Assembly: GCF_028752835.1 (NCBI RefSeq) | Contig: NZ_CP087952.1 | Span: 539,041 to 603,040, forward strand | Reading direction: 5' to 3' | DNA: 64,000 bases | Source of the DNA: Desulfosarcina sp. BuS5 | GTDB lineage: Bacteria; Desulfobacterota; Desulfobacteria; Desulfobacterales; BuS5 | Part shown: positions 12,865 through 19,846 of the stretch, one piece after another | Position numbering within the stretch: the first letter of the stretch is position 1 | Layout: each line of letters begins with the position of its first letter | Position numbers and translations under genes: made by a program | The notes under the pieces: generated by a model | Told to the model about the DNA's origin: nothing | The model's database searches: none | What the model saw: the letters and a program-made list of their open reading frames with translations, nothing else

Positions 12865-13449
12865 ATGAAAAAAGTATTCGTTTTAGGACTTATTATAGTA
12901 TTTGCCGTGTGTGCATCTGGTTTTGCTATTGCTGACAATGCAAATACGCTTAAAGCAAATGAGAAAAAAGCCTGGGAAAATGCGTGTACGGTTTTCCCGG
13001 CAGAACATCGGCTAAATGTTCAACAATTCAAAGAACTTTACGATAGGGTCATGGCCGGGCAGGAAGATGCCTATCTGGTTGATCTTAGAACCCACCCTGA
13101 ATTTTATGCCGCTCACATCCCCGGCACGGAACATATCCATGCAGGTCATATGTACACTTTTCCCAAAAAAATCAAAAATAAAGACGCCAAAATTGTCCTG
13201 TGGTGCAGAACACACAAACGCGGGGCTTACGTTGGGGAAAGGCTGGCTCAATATGGTTACACCAATCTGTGGTGGTATAAAGATGGCATCGTGGGATGGA
13301 TCAAAGCAGGGTATCCTCTTTGTAATCAGTTTATGGGGCTATTCAAAGTGACTGAATATCATAAATATTTTAGCGGGAAATACAAAGAAGGGCCTAAAAA
13401 AGGTCAAGAGAAAGATCCATACCGCATTCGTGAATTTCATCCCTACTGA
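12865..13449 (+). CDS. periplasmic rhodanese-domain protein
   Basis: 194 residues with signal peptide MKKVFVLGLIIVFAVCASGFA. The rhodanese domain spans about 50-155: AYLVDLRTHPEFYAAHIPG, the active-site loop VLWCRTHKRGAYVGERLA with the catalytic Cys in WCRTHKRG, and GYTNLWWYKDGIVGWIKAGY. Periplasmic single-domain rhodaneses move sulfane sulfur or bind sulfide or cyanide. AGGAGG precedes the start. It stands alone, 163 bases before the nitrogenase-like locus on the same strand. The gap between them (13450-13612) shows no clear terminator, so co-transcription is possible but not shown. Confidence 0.88.
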   Translation: MKKVFVLGLIIVFAVCASGFAIADNANTLKANEKKAWENACTVFPAEHRLNVQQFKELYDRVMAGQEDAYLVDLRTHPEFYAAHIPGTEHIHAGHMYTFPKKIKNKDAKIVLWCRTHKRGAYVGERLAQYGYTNLWWYKDGIVGWIKAGYPLCNQFMGLFKVTEYHKYFSGKYKEGPKKGQEKDPYRIREFHPY

Positions 13450-13612: not shown

Positions 13613-15829
13613 ATGCGAATTGCAATTTACGGTAAGGGCGGTATAGGAAAATCTACAATAACAGCCAATCTTGCAGCGGCGCTGGCTGAGAGAGGAAAAC
13701 GTGTGTTGCAGATCGGCTGCGACCCTAAACACGATTCAACCCGGCTGCTGCTGAACGGCAAGAGGGTTATGACTGCGCTCGATTACCTGCGGGATGTGCC
13801 CCCCGTGATGCAGCGTCTGTCCGAAGTTCTTCACACGGGATATAAAGGTGTTGTATGCGCTGAGGCCGGCGGCCCCGAGCCCGGGGTCGGTTGCGCAGGC
13901 CGGGGAATATTAAGCACCTTTGCTTTTTTTGAAAGGCTGGGGCTTAAAACAGAAGATTTTGATGTTATCCTGTACGATGTTCTCGGAGATGTGGTTTGCG
14001 GCGGTTTTGCCGTTCCCCTTAGAAAAGGATTTGCAGAGATAGTCTATATAGTTACTTCTGAAGAATTCATGTCGATTTATGCTGCAAACAATATTTTACG
14101 CGGAGTTCAAAATTTTGATGAATCACCGTACAGAATTGCGGGACTTATTTTAAACAGCAGGGGCGAAGCAGAGGATCAAAAAAAAGTATACAGATTTTCC
14201 AAAGCTGCCCGGCTCCCTGTAAAATATACTATTCAGCGCAGCAGTCTTTTTCGTAAAGCGGAAGAACTTGACAAAACCGTTGTTGAGGCTTTTCCTGAAT
14301 CCTCGGAAACTAAATTATTTCAAACAATGGCCAGAGGGTTTTTTGATGATAACAAGCTCTTCCCTGCTCTTCCGCTTGAAGAGGAGGCTCTGGAACGTAT
14401 TGTTTTGAAAGGAGAGCAGCCCGATAAGGATAAAAAGATTGTTCATCATGTCTCTGGAATAAAAAGCAAGGAAAAAGAGAAGCCGGGTGCTCCATCTGCT
14501 TCAGATCAGGAAAACAGATTACCTGCATCCACATTTCTCTCTAAAAGTATGCTCTGCCGTGAACCGCTGCACGGATGCGCATTTACAGGCGCCATCTGCA
14601 CCACCACACAGATAAACGGCAGCATCTCAGTGGCCCATGGCCCCCGCAGTTGTTCGCAGATAGCCTGCCAGACTATTCTGGCGGGTGGTTTGAGAGCATT
14701 ATATCAAAAGAATGTTATTATCCCTGAACAGTTGTTCCCCTCCATGCTAAGTTCCGATATGAATGAAAACGTAGTAATATATGGAGGGATGGACGATCTG
14801 ACGGAAAAACTCCGGCAGGCCGTTGCAGCCAAACCCCAGGCGGTATTTGTGCTTACGACTTGTCCTGCCGGTGTTATCGGCGATGATGCTGAGTCTGCCA
14901 TCCGGATTATATCGGCCGAACATCCTGAAATACCGGTAATTCCTGTTACTACGGACGGAAATATCCGGGGGGACTATATGCAGGGGGTGCTTAATGCCTG
15001 CATGGAAGGGGCTGGTTCGTTCATCGATCCCTGCTGCAAGCCGGAATATGATCTTGTTAATATTATCGCTGAAAAAAATATAGCCAACAATGCGGAAACA
15101 AACTTTGCCGTGATTTCAAACCTGCTTAATGAACTCGGGATAAGTGTAAACTGCAGGTTCGTGCGCCGGACATCTATTGAAGCATTACGGGGTTTTTTAA
15201 AAGGCCGGTTAAATCTGCCTGCCTTTAATGATCATTTCGGCCGGGTGCTGATTAATTTTCTACAAGAGCGCTTTCAGATCTCCTTTGCACAAAATGCTTT
15301 TCCGGTGGGTTTTTATGAGAGTGAACGCTGGCTGAATGAAATAGCGGTTTTTTTCGAAAAGGAGACTGAAGCCGAAAGAGTTATCGGTCTTTTCAGGAAA
15401 GAGTACCGGGAAAGGATGGAACCTTTCAGAAAAGCCCTGGAGGGAAAGCGTATTATGATAATTACCTACATTCATGATACGGACTGGATCCTGGAGACTG
15501 CTTTTGATATGGGAATGGAGGTTGTAAAAGTCTGTATACTTAATTACTCTCAGGATAACCTTTTTCGTACGCGCTATCCGGGCAGGTTTGAGGTCGAGAC
15601 AAATTATCCTCCTCAAAAAAGGGATGATGACCTGCGTCGTCTGAAGCCTAATCTGCTGCTCTGTAATTATACTCCCCAGGATCTGCCGTTGGCGCTGCAT
15701 GCCGACACTATACCGTTATGCCCGGATGTGGGGTTCTACGGAGGCCTGGCCTTTGCCGGGCGATGGGCTGCCTTGCTGAAGTCACCTGTTAAAGAGGGCT
15801 GGAAATATGAATCTGAAAAATTTGCCTGA
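13613..15829 (+). CDS. nitrogenase-like reductase: NifH-type donor fused to NifD-type catalytic subunit
   Basis: 738 residues. Residues 1 to about 265 are a full NifH/BchL-like ATPase: P-loop GKGGIGKS (7-14), switch DPKHDST, and both [4Fe-4S] cysteines (Cys94 in GVGCAGRG, Cys129 in DVVCGGFA). A basic linker (about 266-300) joins a NifD-like domain (about 305-738) with three cysteines at cluster positions: Cys322 (LHGCAF), Cys347 (HGPRSC) and Cys417 (TTCPAGVIGDD). The FeMo-cofactor Cys and His of NifD are not evident; the C-terminal loop reads GFYGGLAFAGRW. The gene overlaps the NifK-like gene by 23 bases. In known relatives (NifHDK, BchLNB, BchXYZ, CfbCD) the donor is a separate protein, so a fusion is unusual. 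The redox substrate cannot be inferred. No ribosome-binding site is clear. Confidence 0.88.
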   Translation: MRIAIYGKGGIGKSTITANLAAALAERGKRVLQIGCDPKHDSTRLLLNGKRVMTALDYLRDVPPVMQRLSEVLHTGYKGVVCAEAGGPEPGVGCAGRGILSTFAFFERLGLKTEDFDVILYDVLGDVVCGGFAVPLRKGFAEIVYIVTSEEFMSIYAANNILRGVQNFDESPYRIAGLILNSRGEAEDQKKVYRFSKAARLPVKYTIQRSSLFRKAEELDKTVVEAFPESSETKLFQTMARGFFDDNKLFPALPLEEEALERIVLKGEQPDKDKKIVHHVSGIKSKEKEKPGAPSASDQENRLPASTFLSKSMLCREPLHGCAFTGAICTTTQINGSISVAHGPRSCSQIACQTILAGGLRALYQKNVIIPEQLFPSMLSSDMNENVVIYGGMDDLTEKLRQAVAAKPQAVFVLTTCPAGVIGDDAESAIRIISAEHPEIPVIPVTTDGNIRGDYMQGVLNACMEGAGSFIDPCCKPEYDLVNIIAEKNIANNAETNFAVISNLLNELGISVNCRFVRRTSIEALRGFLKGRLNLPAFNDHFGRVLINFLQERFQISFAQNAFPVGFYESERWLNEIAVFFEKETEAERVIGLFRKEYRERMEPFRKALEGKRIMIITYIHDTDWILETAFDMGMEVVKVCILNYSQDNLFRTRYPGRFEVETNYPPQKRDDDLRRLKPNLLLCNYTPQDLPLALHADTIPLCPDVGFYGGLAFAGRWAALLKSPVKEGWKYESEKFA

Positions 15830-17090
15830 AATTATACCTGACGGCTTTACAGGCGCAATTATGGCCATTGAGGGGATTAAGGATGCGGCTGTTCTTCTTA
15901 ACGGCCCCACCGGCTGTAAGTTTTATCACGGCGCAGTGGCAGACTGTCAGTTGCCGAGAGTCGATTCTTTAGATCCGCTTTATTATTCCGAAGAATTCTA
16001 TTTTGGACAGCCCAGGGTGCCGGCGACATATCTTGATGATCATGATTATGTGTTCGGCGCGACTGACAAACTGGAAAAGATTCTGCCGGTTGTGGCTCAA
16101 AAAGGTCATTCTTTGGTTGCAGTGGTAAATTCTCCCGGGGCTGCGCTGATAGGAGACGACCTTGAACGTTTTATTGCCCGGGCAGGACTGCCGGTTCCCT
16201 GTATTGCCATTGAAAGCGCCGGGTTTTCAGATAGTTTTGCAACCGGTTTTCAGAGGGCGGTGATTCAGGCTCTTGAATTGCTCAATCCGCAACCTGCCGG
16301 CGTTGAGCAAAAAAGCGTTAATCTGGTTGGTTTGTCGATTTTTCATCGGCACTGGCAGGGAAATCTTGATGAACTATGCTATCTTTTAAAATTATGCGGA
16401 ATCAAGGTTGTTACAGCATTATGCGCCGGAAGCAGAGTTGAGGAACTGCAAAACCTCGGCTCGGCGGAATACAATCTGGTGGTTCACGGTGAATTTGCAG
16501 ATCAGATTACAAGATTTTTAAAAGAGCGTTTCGGACAGGAGTCTATCATCCCTGAAAATGGAGCCCCCCTCGGTTTTGATGCAACCGAAGCATGGATCAG
16601 AAAAGTTTGCCGCGTGACAGGTGCGGATTCTTCTCCGGCTTTGAGAGTGATCGCTGCAGCCCGTAAACAGAGCTGTGAAATATTAAGTCGTTTTAATTCC
16701 TTGACAGGCCTGCCCAAAGGCGCGACATTTGCTGTTAACACAGATCCTTCGATGGCGCTTCCTCTTACAAAGTGGCTCTATTCCTGGCTGGGAATGGTTC
16801 CGGTTTCAGTAGCTACAGGTGATTCGGATAATGATTACGCGGCCGGGCTGCAAAAATTTCTTTTAGATATAGACTGCATGGAGGCCTGGAATATGGATGC
16901 TGCCAAAGCGGCGCCGGATGTGGCGTTCGGCAGTGAATTTTTTATTTCCCGTTTGAGGTTACGCGGACTGCCGGTAATCGGAATCGACATCTCGCTTCCC
17001 GGAAACGGTTATATAGACTTTATTCAAAAAAGTCTGCTGGGAGCCCGGGGCGCCTTGTACCTTCTGGAAAAAATTATCAATGAACTATAG
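15807..17090 (+). CDS. NifK-like subunit of a nitrogenase-like reductase
   Basis: 427 residues, shorter than NifK (over 500) and closer to BchB/BchZ/CfbD size. The N-terminus PDGFTGAIMAIEGIKDAAV and LLNGPTGCKFYH aligns with the NifK cluster region: Cys37 sits at the NifK Cys95 position, Asp12 at the Cys70 position (25 residues earlier), and the Cys153 position (before ALIGDDLE) is Ser-Pro. Later blocks include NLVGLSIFHRHWQGNLDEL, a shared NifD/K fold element. It should pair with the NifD half of the upstream fusion, with which it overlaps. No NifB, NifE or NifN gene is in the window, which fits a cluster that needs no special cofactor. Transport or folding signals are absent, so the complex is cytoplasmic. 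Confidence 0.85.
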   Translation: MNLKNLPEIIPDGFTGAIMAIEGIKDAAVLLNGPTGCKFYHGAVADCQLPRVDSLDPLYYSEEFYFGQPRVPATYLDDHDYVFGATDKLEKILPVVAQKGHSLVAVVNSPGAALIGDDLERFIARAGLPVPCIAIESAGFSDSFATGFQRAVIQALELLNPQPAGVEQKSVNLVGLSIFHRHWQGNLDELCYLLKLCGIKVVTALCAGSRVEELQNLGSAEYNLVVHGEFADQITRFLKERFGQESIIPENGAPLGFDATEAWIRKVCRVTGADSSPALRVIAAARKQSCEILSRFNSLTGLPKGATFAVNTDPSMALPLTKWLYSWLGMVPVSVATGDSDNDYAAGLQKFLLDIDCMEAWNMDAAKAAPDVAFGSEFFISRLRLRGLPVIGIDISLPGNGYIDFIQKSLLGARGALYLLEKIINEL

Positions 17091-17098
17091 CGAATTCA

Positions 17099-17836
17099 GG
17101 GGACACCATACCTATTTCTTCGGTTTTCGCCCCGGTTTTTTAAGTTTTAGCTTCACACCCAACGATTTTTCCAATTTTTCAATAAATTGGATATTCGGCC
17201 GGTTGGCCGACCGGTTCTCTCATGTTTTTGCAATCGACTCCGCATTTTTGCTGCAATACTTTCCGACAAAAATTGAGCCCAATTCTTATTTACCAATTGA
17301 ATTAAGGATTGTGTTTTCGCAAAGCTTATCTTCGCCACCATTAGTATGAGCGAAAGCACTGCTCCATGTCCAATGCGTTGGATCTTTTACAAGCTTTGCC
17401 CTGACTGGATTCATTTCAATATAATGGGCAGATGCCAACAAATGAACTTCATCCAAAACATAAGAAGCAAATCTCCCTTGCCACAAATGTCCCTTCCAGC
17501 CTTCACGAAAATTGATCATTCGCGAATACCGCCTATGAGCCTCTCCAATTGCAAGCATTAACGATTCTTTGGTTTCAGGGACAGCAATTAAATGGACGTT
17601 ATTAGGCATCAGCTATAGCATCAGGCAGTAGGACCATATTTCTACTCCACGGGCATCGCACCATTCCTTCATCAAATAGATATAGGCAATATAGTCCTTA
17701 TCAGAAAAAAGGTTTGTAGCCGTCTGTTCCCTCTTTGAGTGATATGATGTGGCATCCCCGGTGCCACTATTCTTGCCACAGCCTTTCAGAGGATAATTGC
17801 AATTTATAGCCAACAATAAATAGGTATGGTGTCCCC
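17099..17836. mobile_element. transposase island bounded by 19 bp inverted repeats
   Basis: GGGGACACCATACCTATTT at 17099-17117 is the exact reverse complement of 17818-17836, and similarity (AATTC) extends a few bases further out on both sides. The repeats enclose only a decayed REP-associated transposase gene on the minus strand. REP-associated transposases are often flanked by the very palindromes they recognise; the motif ACACCATACCT may therefore be this family's recognition site. Confidence 0.75.
17112..17779 (-). pseudogene. REP-associated tyrosine transposase (Y1/HUH), several lesions
   Basis: Reading from a GTG at 17779 gives ARIVAPGMPHHITQRGNRR, the standard RAYT start with the HUH-family region. 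At a run of six T (where seven would keep frame) the reading frame shifts. It continues through LFSDKDYIAYIYLMKEWCDA to WSYCLM, where a 12-base duplication adds an in-frame TAG (17613-17615). The frame then resumes as MPNNVHLIAVPETKESLML and GHLWQGRFASYVLDE. Two more shifts (about 17290-17340 and 17190) are needed to reach HERTGRP and the lysine-rich end KKPGRKPKK. The gene is thus certainly inactive. It lies directly between the inverted repeats. Confidence 0.9.
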
Positions 17837-17857
17837 CGAATTTCCCGTTAATCCTTA

Positions 17858-19846
17858 TCAACCCAGAAACACTGTAAGAATATCTTTCCGCGCATCGACA
17901 TTCTGGATTGTGACTTTAACAAGGGCCTCCGGCTTTAAGTTTTCCATCCCGGATCGTGACAAATTACATTCCAGCATATACTCCGGAATCAGTATTTGAT
18001 AATGATCCCTGCGTTTATATAATATAATGGCATCTTCTTTTTGACCGATTCTGTTTTCAAGATATTTCAGCAGCCAGTACCGCACGCGATTCCGTTGAAC
18101 CATGATCGCACTATGCATTGGTTCGGCAAGCATGTTAATCGTTGTATCCATCTCTTCTTGGGAATATGGTTCCTCCAGACCGAGAACGGCACGTATCTGC
18201 CGCTGTGTTGCAAGATCAAAATATTTCCTGATCGGTGATGTGGCTGTTACATAAGAGCTCAATCCAAGTCCGGAATGATGCCCCGGTTTACTGTCCAGAA
18301 CAAAACGATTCAGCAGCCTGCGTTGCATACAGTTTTGGAAAAGCGTACCATCATCCCACTGGTAAAGACGTTCTTTCGGCCCTGGCTGGGATCTGAAAAT
18401 TGCCGGCATTGAGTTTTTAGACAAGAATCCGGACATAATCCAGTTAGCCATTATCATTATTTCAGCAACCAGCATCCTGGCCGGGCTTTCCCGGTTAATT
18501 CGGCATACATTAATTTCACCGGTCTCATCTATCCAGACGTTGATGTTAGGTAGAGAAATCTGAACGGCTCCGTTCTTTATTCTGAACTGACGAAATTTTT
18601 TTGCGATCTCATAAAGAATGGTTATATCCCTGTTTTCATTTATCATCAGGTTTGCGTTATAATATGTGAGCTGATGTTCGACCCTGATAATACTATGGAT
18701 AATTTCATAATCTATAATTTCATAAAACCTGCTTAAATTGACCATAATGCTTATAGCCGGACGTATTCCCCCCTCCTTTAGGCTGCAAAGATTTTCGGCC
18801 AGACATGCCGGCAGCATGGGGATTATCTGATCCGGCATATAAATGGAGCTTCCCCGTGCAAGGGCTTCCTGATCAACCGCGTCGCCTTTTTTTATGAAAT
18901 ACCCGATATCTATAATATGAATGCCCAGACGATAATGGTCATCAAGCTTCTCTATGCTCAAGGCATCATCAAAGTCCATGGTAGCCCTGCCGTCGATGGT
19001 TATAACCGGAAGGTCGGTAAGGTCTTTGCGCCCGTTATTATAAGATAATGGAAGGGAAAGATTAGAGGAATGCGCTGCAACTTTGTTTGAAAAAGTTACC
19101 GAAACACCTGATTTGTAAAGATCGATATTTTCGTTTTCATTGAGTGCGCCGGCTTTTACAAGAAGCCTGAAGCTTTCAGCTAAATTAATGTTTGCTTTTT
19201 TAAAAATATCTTTACATAGAGAATAGTCTTTGCTCTCCTTTTCAAAAATAACAACCGATTTAATTATATCAATAATTTCCCGGGCGTCATCATTCATTTC
19301 TTCCGGGTGATAATTATTTTTTTCCGAACCGGATACCCGTTTTACCCATTCACTCCCTTTTTCTATGATAAGCCTTCTTCGTTCTTCCTCTTTGAGGTGC
19401 TCAAGATTTCGCTCTACCTGCTCCTCAGAGTGCGGGAAAAACCGATCATGATCAAATTTAAAATAGAGCCTGTTATAAAAAAATGCCCTGACAACCGATG
19501 ATTCATGGTCACCATCAGTGGTTCCTGAAAAACAGAAAGCCGTCATTGTTTCAACATCTATCCATTCCTGCTCTGTGTTAAGTATTTCCCATACCTCTTT
19601 TATGTCTATATCATGCGCCAGTTTTTTCCTATATGCTGATATTTCACGCAGAGCGTTGATCAGATTATCCCTTCCTGAAGAGAGATTAAGACTTTTTTTA
19701 GATTTATGCAGCAAGCGGTTTGTGGAAAGATTAACTTCACGGTTGGTCTCTGTCAGTAGCCTGAGCCGGTTGCCCTTTACCTCCATGACAACCGCGCAGA
19801 GTATCTTCTGTCGGTCTATATATTCTACAATATCATTTGGTTCCAT
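17858..19846 (-). CDS. RNB-domain exoribonuclease (RNase II/R family)
   Basis: 662 residues. The RNB catalytic domain begins with VITIDGRATMDFDDALSIE, which carries the conserved Asp residues that bind the catalytic metal (D-x-x-x-x-x-D-x-DD pattern). Later hallmarks are ARGSSIYMPDQIIPMLPACL, AEIMIMANWIMSGFL and the SYVTATSPIRKYFDLATQRQ motif. The N-terminal 260 residues lack obvious cold-shock repeats and resemble the deltaproteobacterial and plastid-like RNB proteins. A C-terminal OB/S1-like tail ends in VKVTIQNVDARKDILTVFLG. It degrades RNA 3' to 5'. The gene is alone; its 3' end abuts the decayed transposase island. Confidence 0.9.
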   Translation of the reverse strand: MEPNDIVEYIDRQKILCAVVMEVKGNRLRLLTETNREVNLSTNRLLHKSKKSLNLSSGRDNLINALREISAYRKKLAHDIDIKEVWEILNTEQEWIDVETMTAFCFSGTTDGDHESSVVRAFFYNRLYFKFDHDRFFPHSEEQVERNLEHLKEEERRRLIIEKGSEWVKRVSGSEKNNYHPEEMNDDAREIIDIIKSVVIFEKESKDYSLCKDIFKKANINLAESFRLLVKAGALNENENIDLYKSGVSVTFSNKVAAHSSNLSLPLSYNNGRKDLTDLPVITIDGRATMDFDDALSIEKLDDHYRLGIHIIDIGYFIKKGDAVDQEALARGSSIYMPDQIIPMLPACLAENLCSLKEGGIRPAISIMVNLSRFYEIIDYEIIHSIIRVEHQLTYYNANLMINENRDITILYEIAKKFRQFRIKNGAVQISLPNINVWIDETGEINVCRINRESPARMLVAEIMIMANWIMSGFLSKNSMPAIFRSQPGPKERLYQWDDGTLFQNCMQRRLLNRFVLDSKPGHHSGLGLSSYVTATSPIRKYFDLATQRQIRAVLGLEEPYSQEEMDTTINMLAEPMHSAIMVQRNRVRYWLLKYLENRIGQKEDAIILYKRRDHYQILIPEYMLECNLSRSGMENLKPEALVKVTIQNVDARKDILTVFLG

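Follow-up and report, generated by a model that had tools for sequence, protein, structure and literature searches.

A NifH-NifD fusion and its NifK-like partner in Desulfosarcina sp. BuS5 as a conserved candidate nitrogenase-like reductase with no assigned substrate

The 64,000 nt stretch of Desulfosarcina sp. BuS5 DNA analysed here (the window; positions 539,041 to 603,040 of NZ_CP087952.1) contains two overlapping genes, for an H-D fusion and a K-type partner, that are conserved as a pair and lie outside the Nif, Vnf, Bch and cofactor-type nitrogenase-like (NFL) sequences tested. This upholds the preliminary description of the locus as a two-gene nitrogenase-like reductase to which no substrate has been assigned. 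The D-K body probably holds one [4Fe-4S] cluster, the ligands being in place and conserved and the cluster type predicted from the sequence. We tentatively regard the pair as an ATP-driven reductase resembling DPOR and COR, which has a single [4Fe-4S] relay, lacks a large cofactor and would most likely act on an imported metal chelate or the product of one. The features, with positions in the window, are as follows.

13613-15829, + strand: H-D fusion gene, ATG start, 738 aa
13613-14407, + strand: NifH-type ATPase / [4Fe-4S] donor domain, residues 1-265 (Pfam PF00142)
14408-14572, + strand: linker of the fusion, about 54 residues, low predicted confidence over most of its length
14573-15829, + strand: NifD/E-type domain (Pfam PF00148, E 4e-64)
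15807-17090, + strand: NifK/N-type partner gene, ATG start, 427 aa (Pfam PF00148, E 3e-50)

The open reading frame list and Pfam bear out both genes, the H and D domains and the 23 bases common to the fusion and K genes, as originally described. Fer4_NifH (PF00142) covers fusion residues 1-265 (E 5e-86) and Oxidored_nitro (PF00148) covers residues 322-722 (E 4e-64) and spans the K protein (E 3e-50). The NifH-type domain had been called complete, and it is intact; its P-loop (GKGGIGKS), Cys94 and Cys129 are invariant in all 12 aligned fusions. The locus therefore has what marks NFL systems at large, namely a NifH-type ATPase with [4Fe-4S] cysteines and a PF00148 body. The linker, reported as basic, is mildly so in the window protein (11 K/R, 8 D/E), but this is not a shared trait (3 K/R against 8 D/E in genome G690); by alignment it is 46-72 residues long across the 12 fusions and variable in sequence. 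AlphaFold models, for which the input was six sequences for HD and five for K, were poor (pTM 0.48 for each), and the H part matched Fe proteins (TMt 0.89 for 6nzj_A). Fold searches with the predicted models returned the same family and nothing beyond it. A rhodanese-like gene precedes the pair.

Searching the GTDB species genomes with K turned up five relatives, including Desulfocicer vacuolatum DSM 3385. At E ≤1e-20, K was present in 11 of 389 genomes of the order, and a class-level search (389 genomes) recovered the identical set of 11. The whole-length fusion was matched in 4 of 395 genomes of a phylum sample, with G077 and G390 lying outside the order. In total there are 13 carrier genomes, BuS5 and the five loci of the GTDB scan included, and 12 of them, again counting BuS5, have a complete fusion. 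These searches for the full fusion covered the phylum to which BuS5 belongs; the archaeal and Firmicutes fusions already in print are outside that set. In the remaining carrier, G620, a contig end cuts the D part and K has in-frame stops, and this genome was excluded from every alignment and tree. Two partial K sequences were also excluded, that of G716 from the K alignment and K tree and that of G707 from the K tree. The D domains of the other carriers are 42-83 % identical to that of the window, and 181 residues of the fusion (12 rows) and 91 of K (11 rows) are invariant, counting columns with no more than two gapped rows. Viral contigs scanned with the D alignment gave no relative. No fusion was found among the plasmid matches listed (60 of 265, 20 of 20 and 40 of 102 records), which were Nif, Bch, Vnf and other NFL relatives.

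A search for further H-D fusions with a comparison of their neighbours had been proposed from the outset; it returned the 12 complete fusions, with the two-gene order kept. An assembly error or frameshift joining two genes is ruled out, because the same fusion occurs in 12 genomes, Desulfocicer vacuolatum DSM 3385 among them, and its D part and the K partner each form a clade of their own. In careful trees, D (12 rows) and K (10 rows) are each a single clade (100/100) on a long stem, separate from the rows for Nif, Vnf, Bch and both cofactor-type and hydrogenase-linked NFL, and the nearest relative is without support. Two long-branched D rows, HYDb_G353 and G332, were left out of the careful D tree. 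The H domains cluster together weakly (84, quick tree). A sister relationship of K to the K type linked to hydrogenase and transporter genes, which the quick tree gave with a support of 94, was unsupported in the careful tree and was dropped. The tree proposed in the preliminary description was thus obtained in part: it separates D and K from the Nif, Vnf, Bch and cofactor-type NFL rows, while Cfb, Mar and Isr sequences are absent from it, Cfb having been compared by curated models and Mar by alignment to solved proteins. Among the best 25 of 32 NCBIfam models matching the fusion, none exceeded its cut-off, and none of the 16 matching K did so. The best for the fusion were CfbC (309.6 bits, cut-off 402) and NifH (303.1 bits, cut-off 394.35). 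The CfbD model gave 30.7 bits (cut-off 268.4), and the BchL, BchX, BchB, BchN and BchZ models scored far beneath their cut-offs.

The predicted cluster rests on four cysteines. D has three at P-cluster positions (Cys322, Cys347 and Cys417, invariant in 12 rows) and K has one (Cys37, invariant in 11 rows). An invariant aspartate (Asp12) occupies the beta-70 position of K, and there is no cysteine at the beta-153 position. This count of three in D and one in K, in the same columns of the alignment, is that of the BchY/BchZ rows, and it differs from the six P-cluster cysteines (three in D, three in K) of nitrogenase. The column of the FeMo-co ligand Cys275 holds Phe, Tyr, Ser or Val in all 12 D rows. 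A cysteine is found there in seven D rows of the cofactor type (two each from Treponema and G241, one each from Chlorohelix, G262 and G146). The solved MarD has a cysteine aligned one residue past alpha-275 (Asn539 in the window protein), where no fusion has one, and the solved MarK has one aligned with K Pro110, where the fused clade has none. Further D cysteines are Cys514 (12 of 12 rows) and Cys703 (11 of 12).

The absence of nif assembly, cfb and chlorophyll genes, first noted for the window, holds across the assembly (4.18 Mb, 97 % complete) as judged by three models (NifH, Oxidored_nitro and NifB). A profile search of the whole assembly gave no match to the NifB model. The only strong NifH is the fused H, five other matches scoring 20.7-38.5 bits. 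As the fusion and K are also the only Oxidored_nitro genes, no relative of NifEN, CfbD or BchN/B was found elsewhere in the genome. G438 likewise has no match to the NifB model, and in G712, G716 and G707 the model matches only weakly (20.5-25.1 bits, cut-off 343.65); G438, G716 and G707 are 71-86 % complete and G712 98 %. In these four and in BuS5, no NifH other than the fused H reaches E ≤1e-30. As none of the five carriers has a strong NifB or a second strong NifH, the fused system can probably do without both a free donor protein and the machinery that makes large cofactors. NifB is above the cut-off in 7 of the 12 carriers searched.

Set against known systems, neither the pair nor its genome has the FeMo-co Cys275, six P-cluster cysteines, NifB and NifEN of nitrogenases (NifHDK, VnfDK). 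The resemblance is to COR (BchXYZ) and DPOR (BchLNB), with three D cluster cysteines as in BchY and BchN, one K ligand position as in BchZ, and no FeMo-co ligand. However, the donor is separate in COR and DPOR, and the fused D and K fall outside the Bch rows in trees. COR holds one [4Fe-4S] cluster. DPOR also holds one, according to Dos Santos 2012 (PMC3464626). CfbC is the top NCBIfam match of the H domain, but the CfbC and CfbD models are under their cut-offs and the fused system has a K gene, whereas Cfb is described in PMC11423573 as having no K homologue.

The preliminary description had put the locus forward as a candidate undescribed reductase; as an arrangement it is not new, the fusion being already in print (PMC3464626; for archaea, PMC11237513). 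In Dos Santos 2012 (PMC3464626), an H-D fusion with the same gene order is given in one sentence as data not shown, with Deltaproteobacteria among the carriers; FeMo-co ligands are described as missing from the wider set, and NFL genes are also noted as lying downstream of an ABC-type ATPase gene. As that sentence gives no accession, ligand pattern, neighbours or function, its fusions are likely, but not proven, to belong to the same clade as ours. A 2024 survey (PMC11237513) records archaeal cases, from Methanomassiliicoccales, Methanosarcinales and Methanomicrobiales, in which NifH is likewise joined to NifD/E. For the nifHDK-like genes of a Paenibacillus, PMC4246453 reports no role in N2 fixation. 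No function for the fused clade was found in the open-access literature, subscription papers being mostly outside the search. Added here to what is in print are the 3+1 cysteine pattern, the replacement of the FeMo-co cysteine, and a genome that lacks a NifB match, a second strong NifH and any further NifD/K relative.

From these data we infer a mechanism in its cluster type, electron path, half-occupancy and substrate class. Two H domains would pair and receive electrons from ferredoxin or flavodoxin, and the H pair would hydrolyse ATP and dock on the D-K body. Electrons would then pass singly to one [4Fe-4S] cluster held by D Cys322, Cys347 and Cys417 and K Cys37, and the cluster would reduce a substrate bound directly in a D-K pocket that lacks a FeMo-co-like cofactor. 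The linker would hold the donor at its acceptor and set H:D at 1:1. Since that ratio is fixed, a D2K2 body would own one H pair and either one half would be served at a time or pairs would form between bodies. A free Fe protein can serve both halves of nitrogenase. The earlier suggestion of a cycle altered by covalent attachment of the donor is unsupported: with 46-72 residues of variable linker, H could both dock and leave, so that the known cycle need not change; what is fixed is the 1:1 ratio. Our best guess at the substrate, itself held with some doubt, is an imported chelate (tetrapyrrole, corrinoid or siderophore), because a TonB receptor gene lies near the pair in 4 of 13 genomes, two of which also have a binding protein and FecCD nearby. 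In its most specific form, a NifB-independent tethered machine would reduce imported heme, corrinoid or ferric siderophore and free or remodel the metal, with one H pair per D2K2 and one half at work at a time; as a whole this is rather unlikely to be right in every part.

The four genomes with a TonB receptor gene no more than 2 kb from the pair are G712 (246 bases), G561 (about 1.65 kb), G390 (65 bases) and G707. In G707 the receptor end is at a contig edge, and a fragment between it and the pair is 62 % identical over 37 residues to the end of the G390 binding protein. For a distance of up to 3 kb, chosen after the loci had been seen, 0.31 genomes are expected from per-genome receptor counts (P 1.8e-4 for four, 0.003 for three), where G390 and G707 are sisters and the G707 receptor end is absent from its counted plugs. 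In G390, TonB, a 65-base gap, HD, K, a 7-base gap, the binding protein and FecCD follow in one direction, an order that, with such gaps, reads as one operon. In G561, TonB, binding protein and FecCD are all within 6 kb downstream. FecCD within 6 kb is seen in two genomes against 0.26 expected (P 0.03) and within 3 kb in one (P 0.15), a weak signal. No nearby TonB gene was seen in 9 of the 13 genomes, BuS5 included, and a link to uptake is thus not a general feature; the view is limited by contig ends in G620, G716, G707 and G077. The neighbouring receptors differ, their best NCBIfam models being for heme, B12 or siderophore with none over cut-off, and BtuC, the top model of the neighbouring permeases, is also the best for 10 of 10 control FecCD proteins. 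Neither result therefore names a ligand, and a corrinoid ligand read from BtuC was rejected.

Other neighbours vary. A cobalamin adenosyltransferase gene lies 230 bases away and divergent in G438. In G077, CobT, FecCD and a BtuF-like protein are encoded 5-11 kb upstream, and a radical-SAM gene directly beside the fusion is the only such gene identified, relatives' neighbours having been judged by eye; a Pfam scan found none among the six neighbouring ORFs in the window. Two sister loci, L039 and L041, both have a branched-chain-type ABC transporter downstream (by eye). On a Treponema plasmid, an iron-type ABC transporter flanks an unfused H-D-K operon whose K is of the single-Cys type, and unfused H-D-K operons elsewhere lie among genes resembling hydrogenase maturation genes (by eye). 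No recurring internal-pathway gene or client protein was seen beside the pair, most neighbours being judged by eye from their first residues.

Uptake as a reading is weakened by the loci without TonB, which are the majority, and its independence from NifB by the seven of 12 carriers in which NifB exceeds the cut-off. The same DPOR/COR-like reductase could instead act on an internal substrate, for example in corrin, heme d1 or other ring reduction, with TonB and FecCD belonging to shared iron-regulated islands. The nine loci without TonB neighbours would fit this, as would the cobalamin adenosyltransferase of G438, the CobT, FecCD and BtuF-like protein of G077 and the position of the BuS5 pair after a rhodanese-like gene. 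Nevertheless, TonB genes are near four loci, above expectation, the G390 order reads as one operon and no pathway gene was seen to recur beside the pair (mostly by eye), and we consider an internal substrate somewhat unlikely.

A reductive activator, which would return the metal in a corrinoid, heme or nickel protein to its reduced state, has a precedent in the ATP-driven activation complex of methyl-coenzyme M reductase (PMC12176620), and the adenosyltransferase beside the G438 pair and the unfused operons among apparent hydrogenase maturation genes (by eye) are consistent with it. It is nonetheless improbable, as no recurring client protein was seen adjoining the pair (by eye) and a complete D-K body points to a substrate that the enzyme itself binds. 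Cleavage of C-S bonds or sulfonates with large clusters, as in methylthio-alkane (Mar) or isethionate (Isr) reductase, is the first alternative to be raised, MarK being the solved protein closest to K (E 1e-23); MarD is second for D, after NifE. Mar contains a P-cluster and [Fe8S9C] (PMC12552129), and the cofactor cysteine of MarD and the third P-cluster cysteine of MarK (at K Pro110) have no counterpart in the fused clade. Isr, Mar and Nfa are BHDK sets with a radical-SAM B gene (PMC11423573); a radical-SAM gene was identified directly beside a fusion only in G077. The NifB match, the one radical-SAM type searched by model, is absent or weak in five carriers, and in trees D and K group apart from the cofactor-type NFL rows. 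With the ligands different and a strong NifB absent from five carriers, such a function is very unlikely.

Unexpected reductions by nitrogenase-like enzymes keep emerging (F430, methionine salvage, isethionate). The fused clade, which has no assigned reduction, is now tied to a named strain, a predicted cluster and a testable substrate class. A natural H-D tether at a fixed 1:1 ratio also offers a way to test directly if departure of the Fe protein between electrons is obligatory and if both halves of the body need to be served, two old questions about nitrogenase.

The rhodanese-like gene that precedes the fusion of NifH- and NifD/E-type domains, and the apparent transposase fragments that follow its NifK/N-type partner gene, lie in the window as follows.

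12865-13449, same strand as the fusion gene and 163 bases upstream of it: rhodanese-like gene
17286-17861, just 3' of the partner gene: apparent broken REP-associated (Y1-type) transposase fragments, recognized by eye only

The rhodanese-like product has an apparent signal peptide (judged by eye), and no such gene was seen at the locus of G438, the closest relative, which carries the same fusion.

Other arrangements were found at the compared loci (positions within each locus).

L049 6619-13168, L051 8932-12174, L059 3962-7184, and L101-L103: separate NifH-D-K-like operons
L045 6638-14294, on plasmid pTS1 of Treponema saccharophilum: H-D-K set of unfused genes
L056 8598-10352, genome G198: single 584 aa reading frame with two NifH domains
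L055 3318-5181 and L057 6072-8218, genomes G332 and G133: tandem pair of adjacent NifH-like genes

The separate operons adjoin apparent [FeFe]-hydrogenase maturation genes (HydE, HydF and AspA) and apparent HypD/HypF, all neighbour names being assigned by eye rather than by search; genome G353 has two copies of this hydrogenase-gene-linked operon. The genes flanking the pTS1 set are annotated as an iron-type ABC transporter, and the double-NifH frame adjoins D, K and an apparent sulfonate-type ABC transporter.
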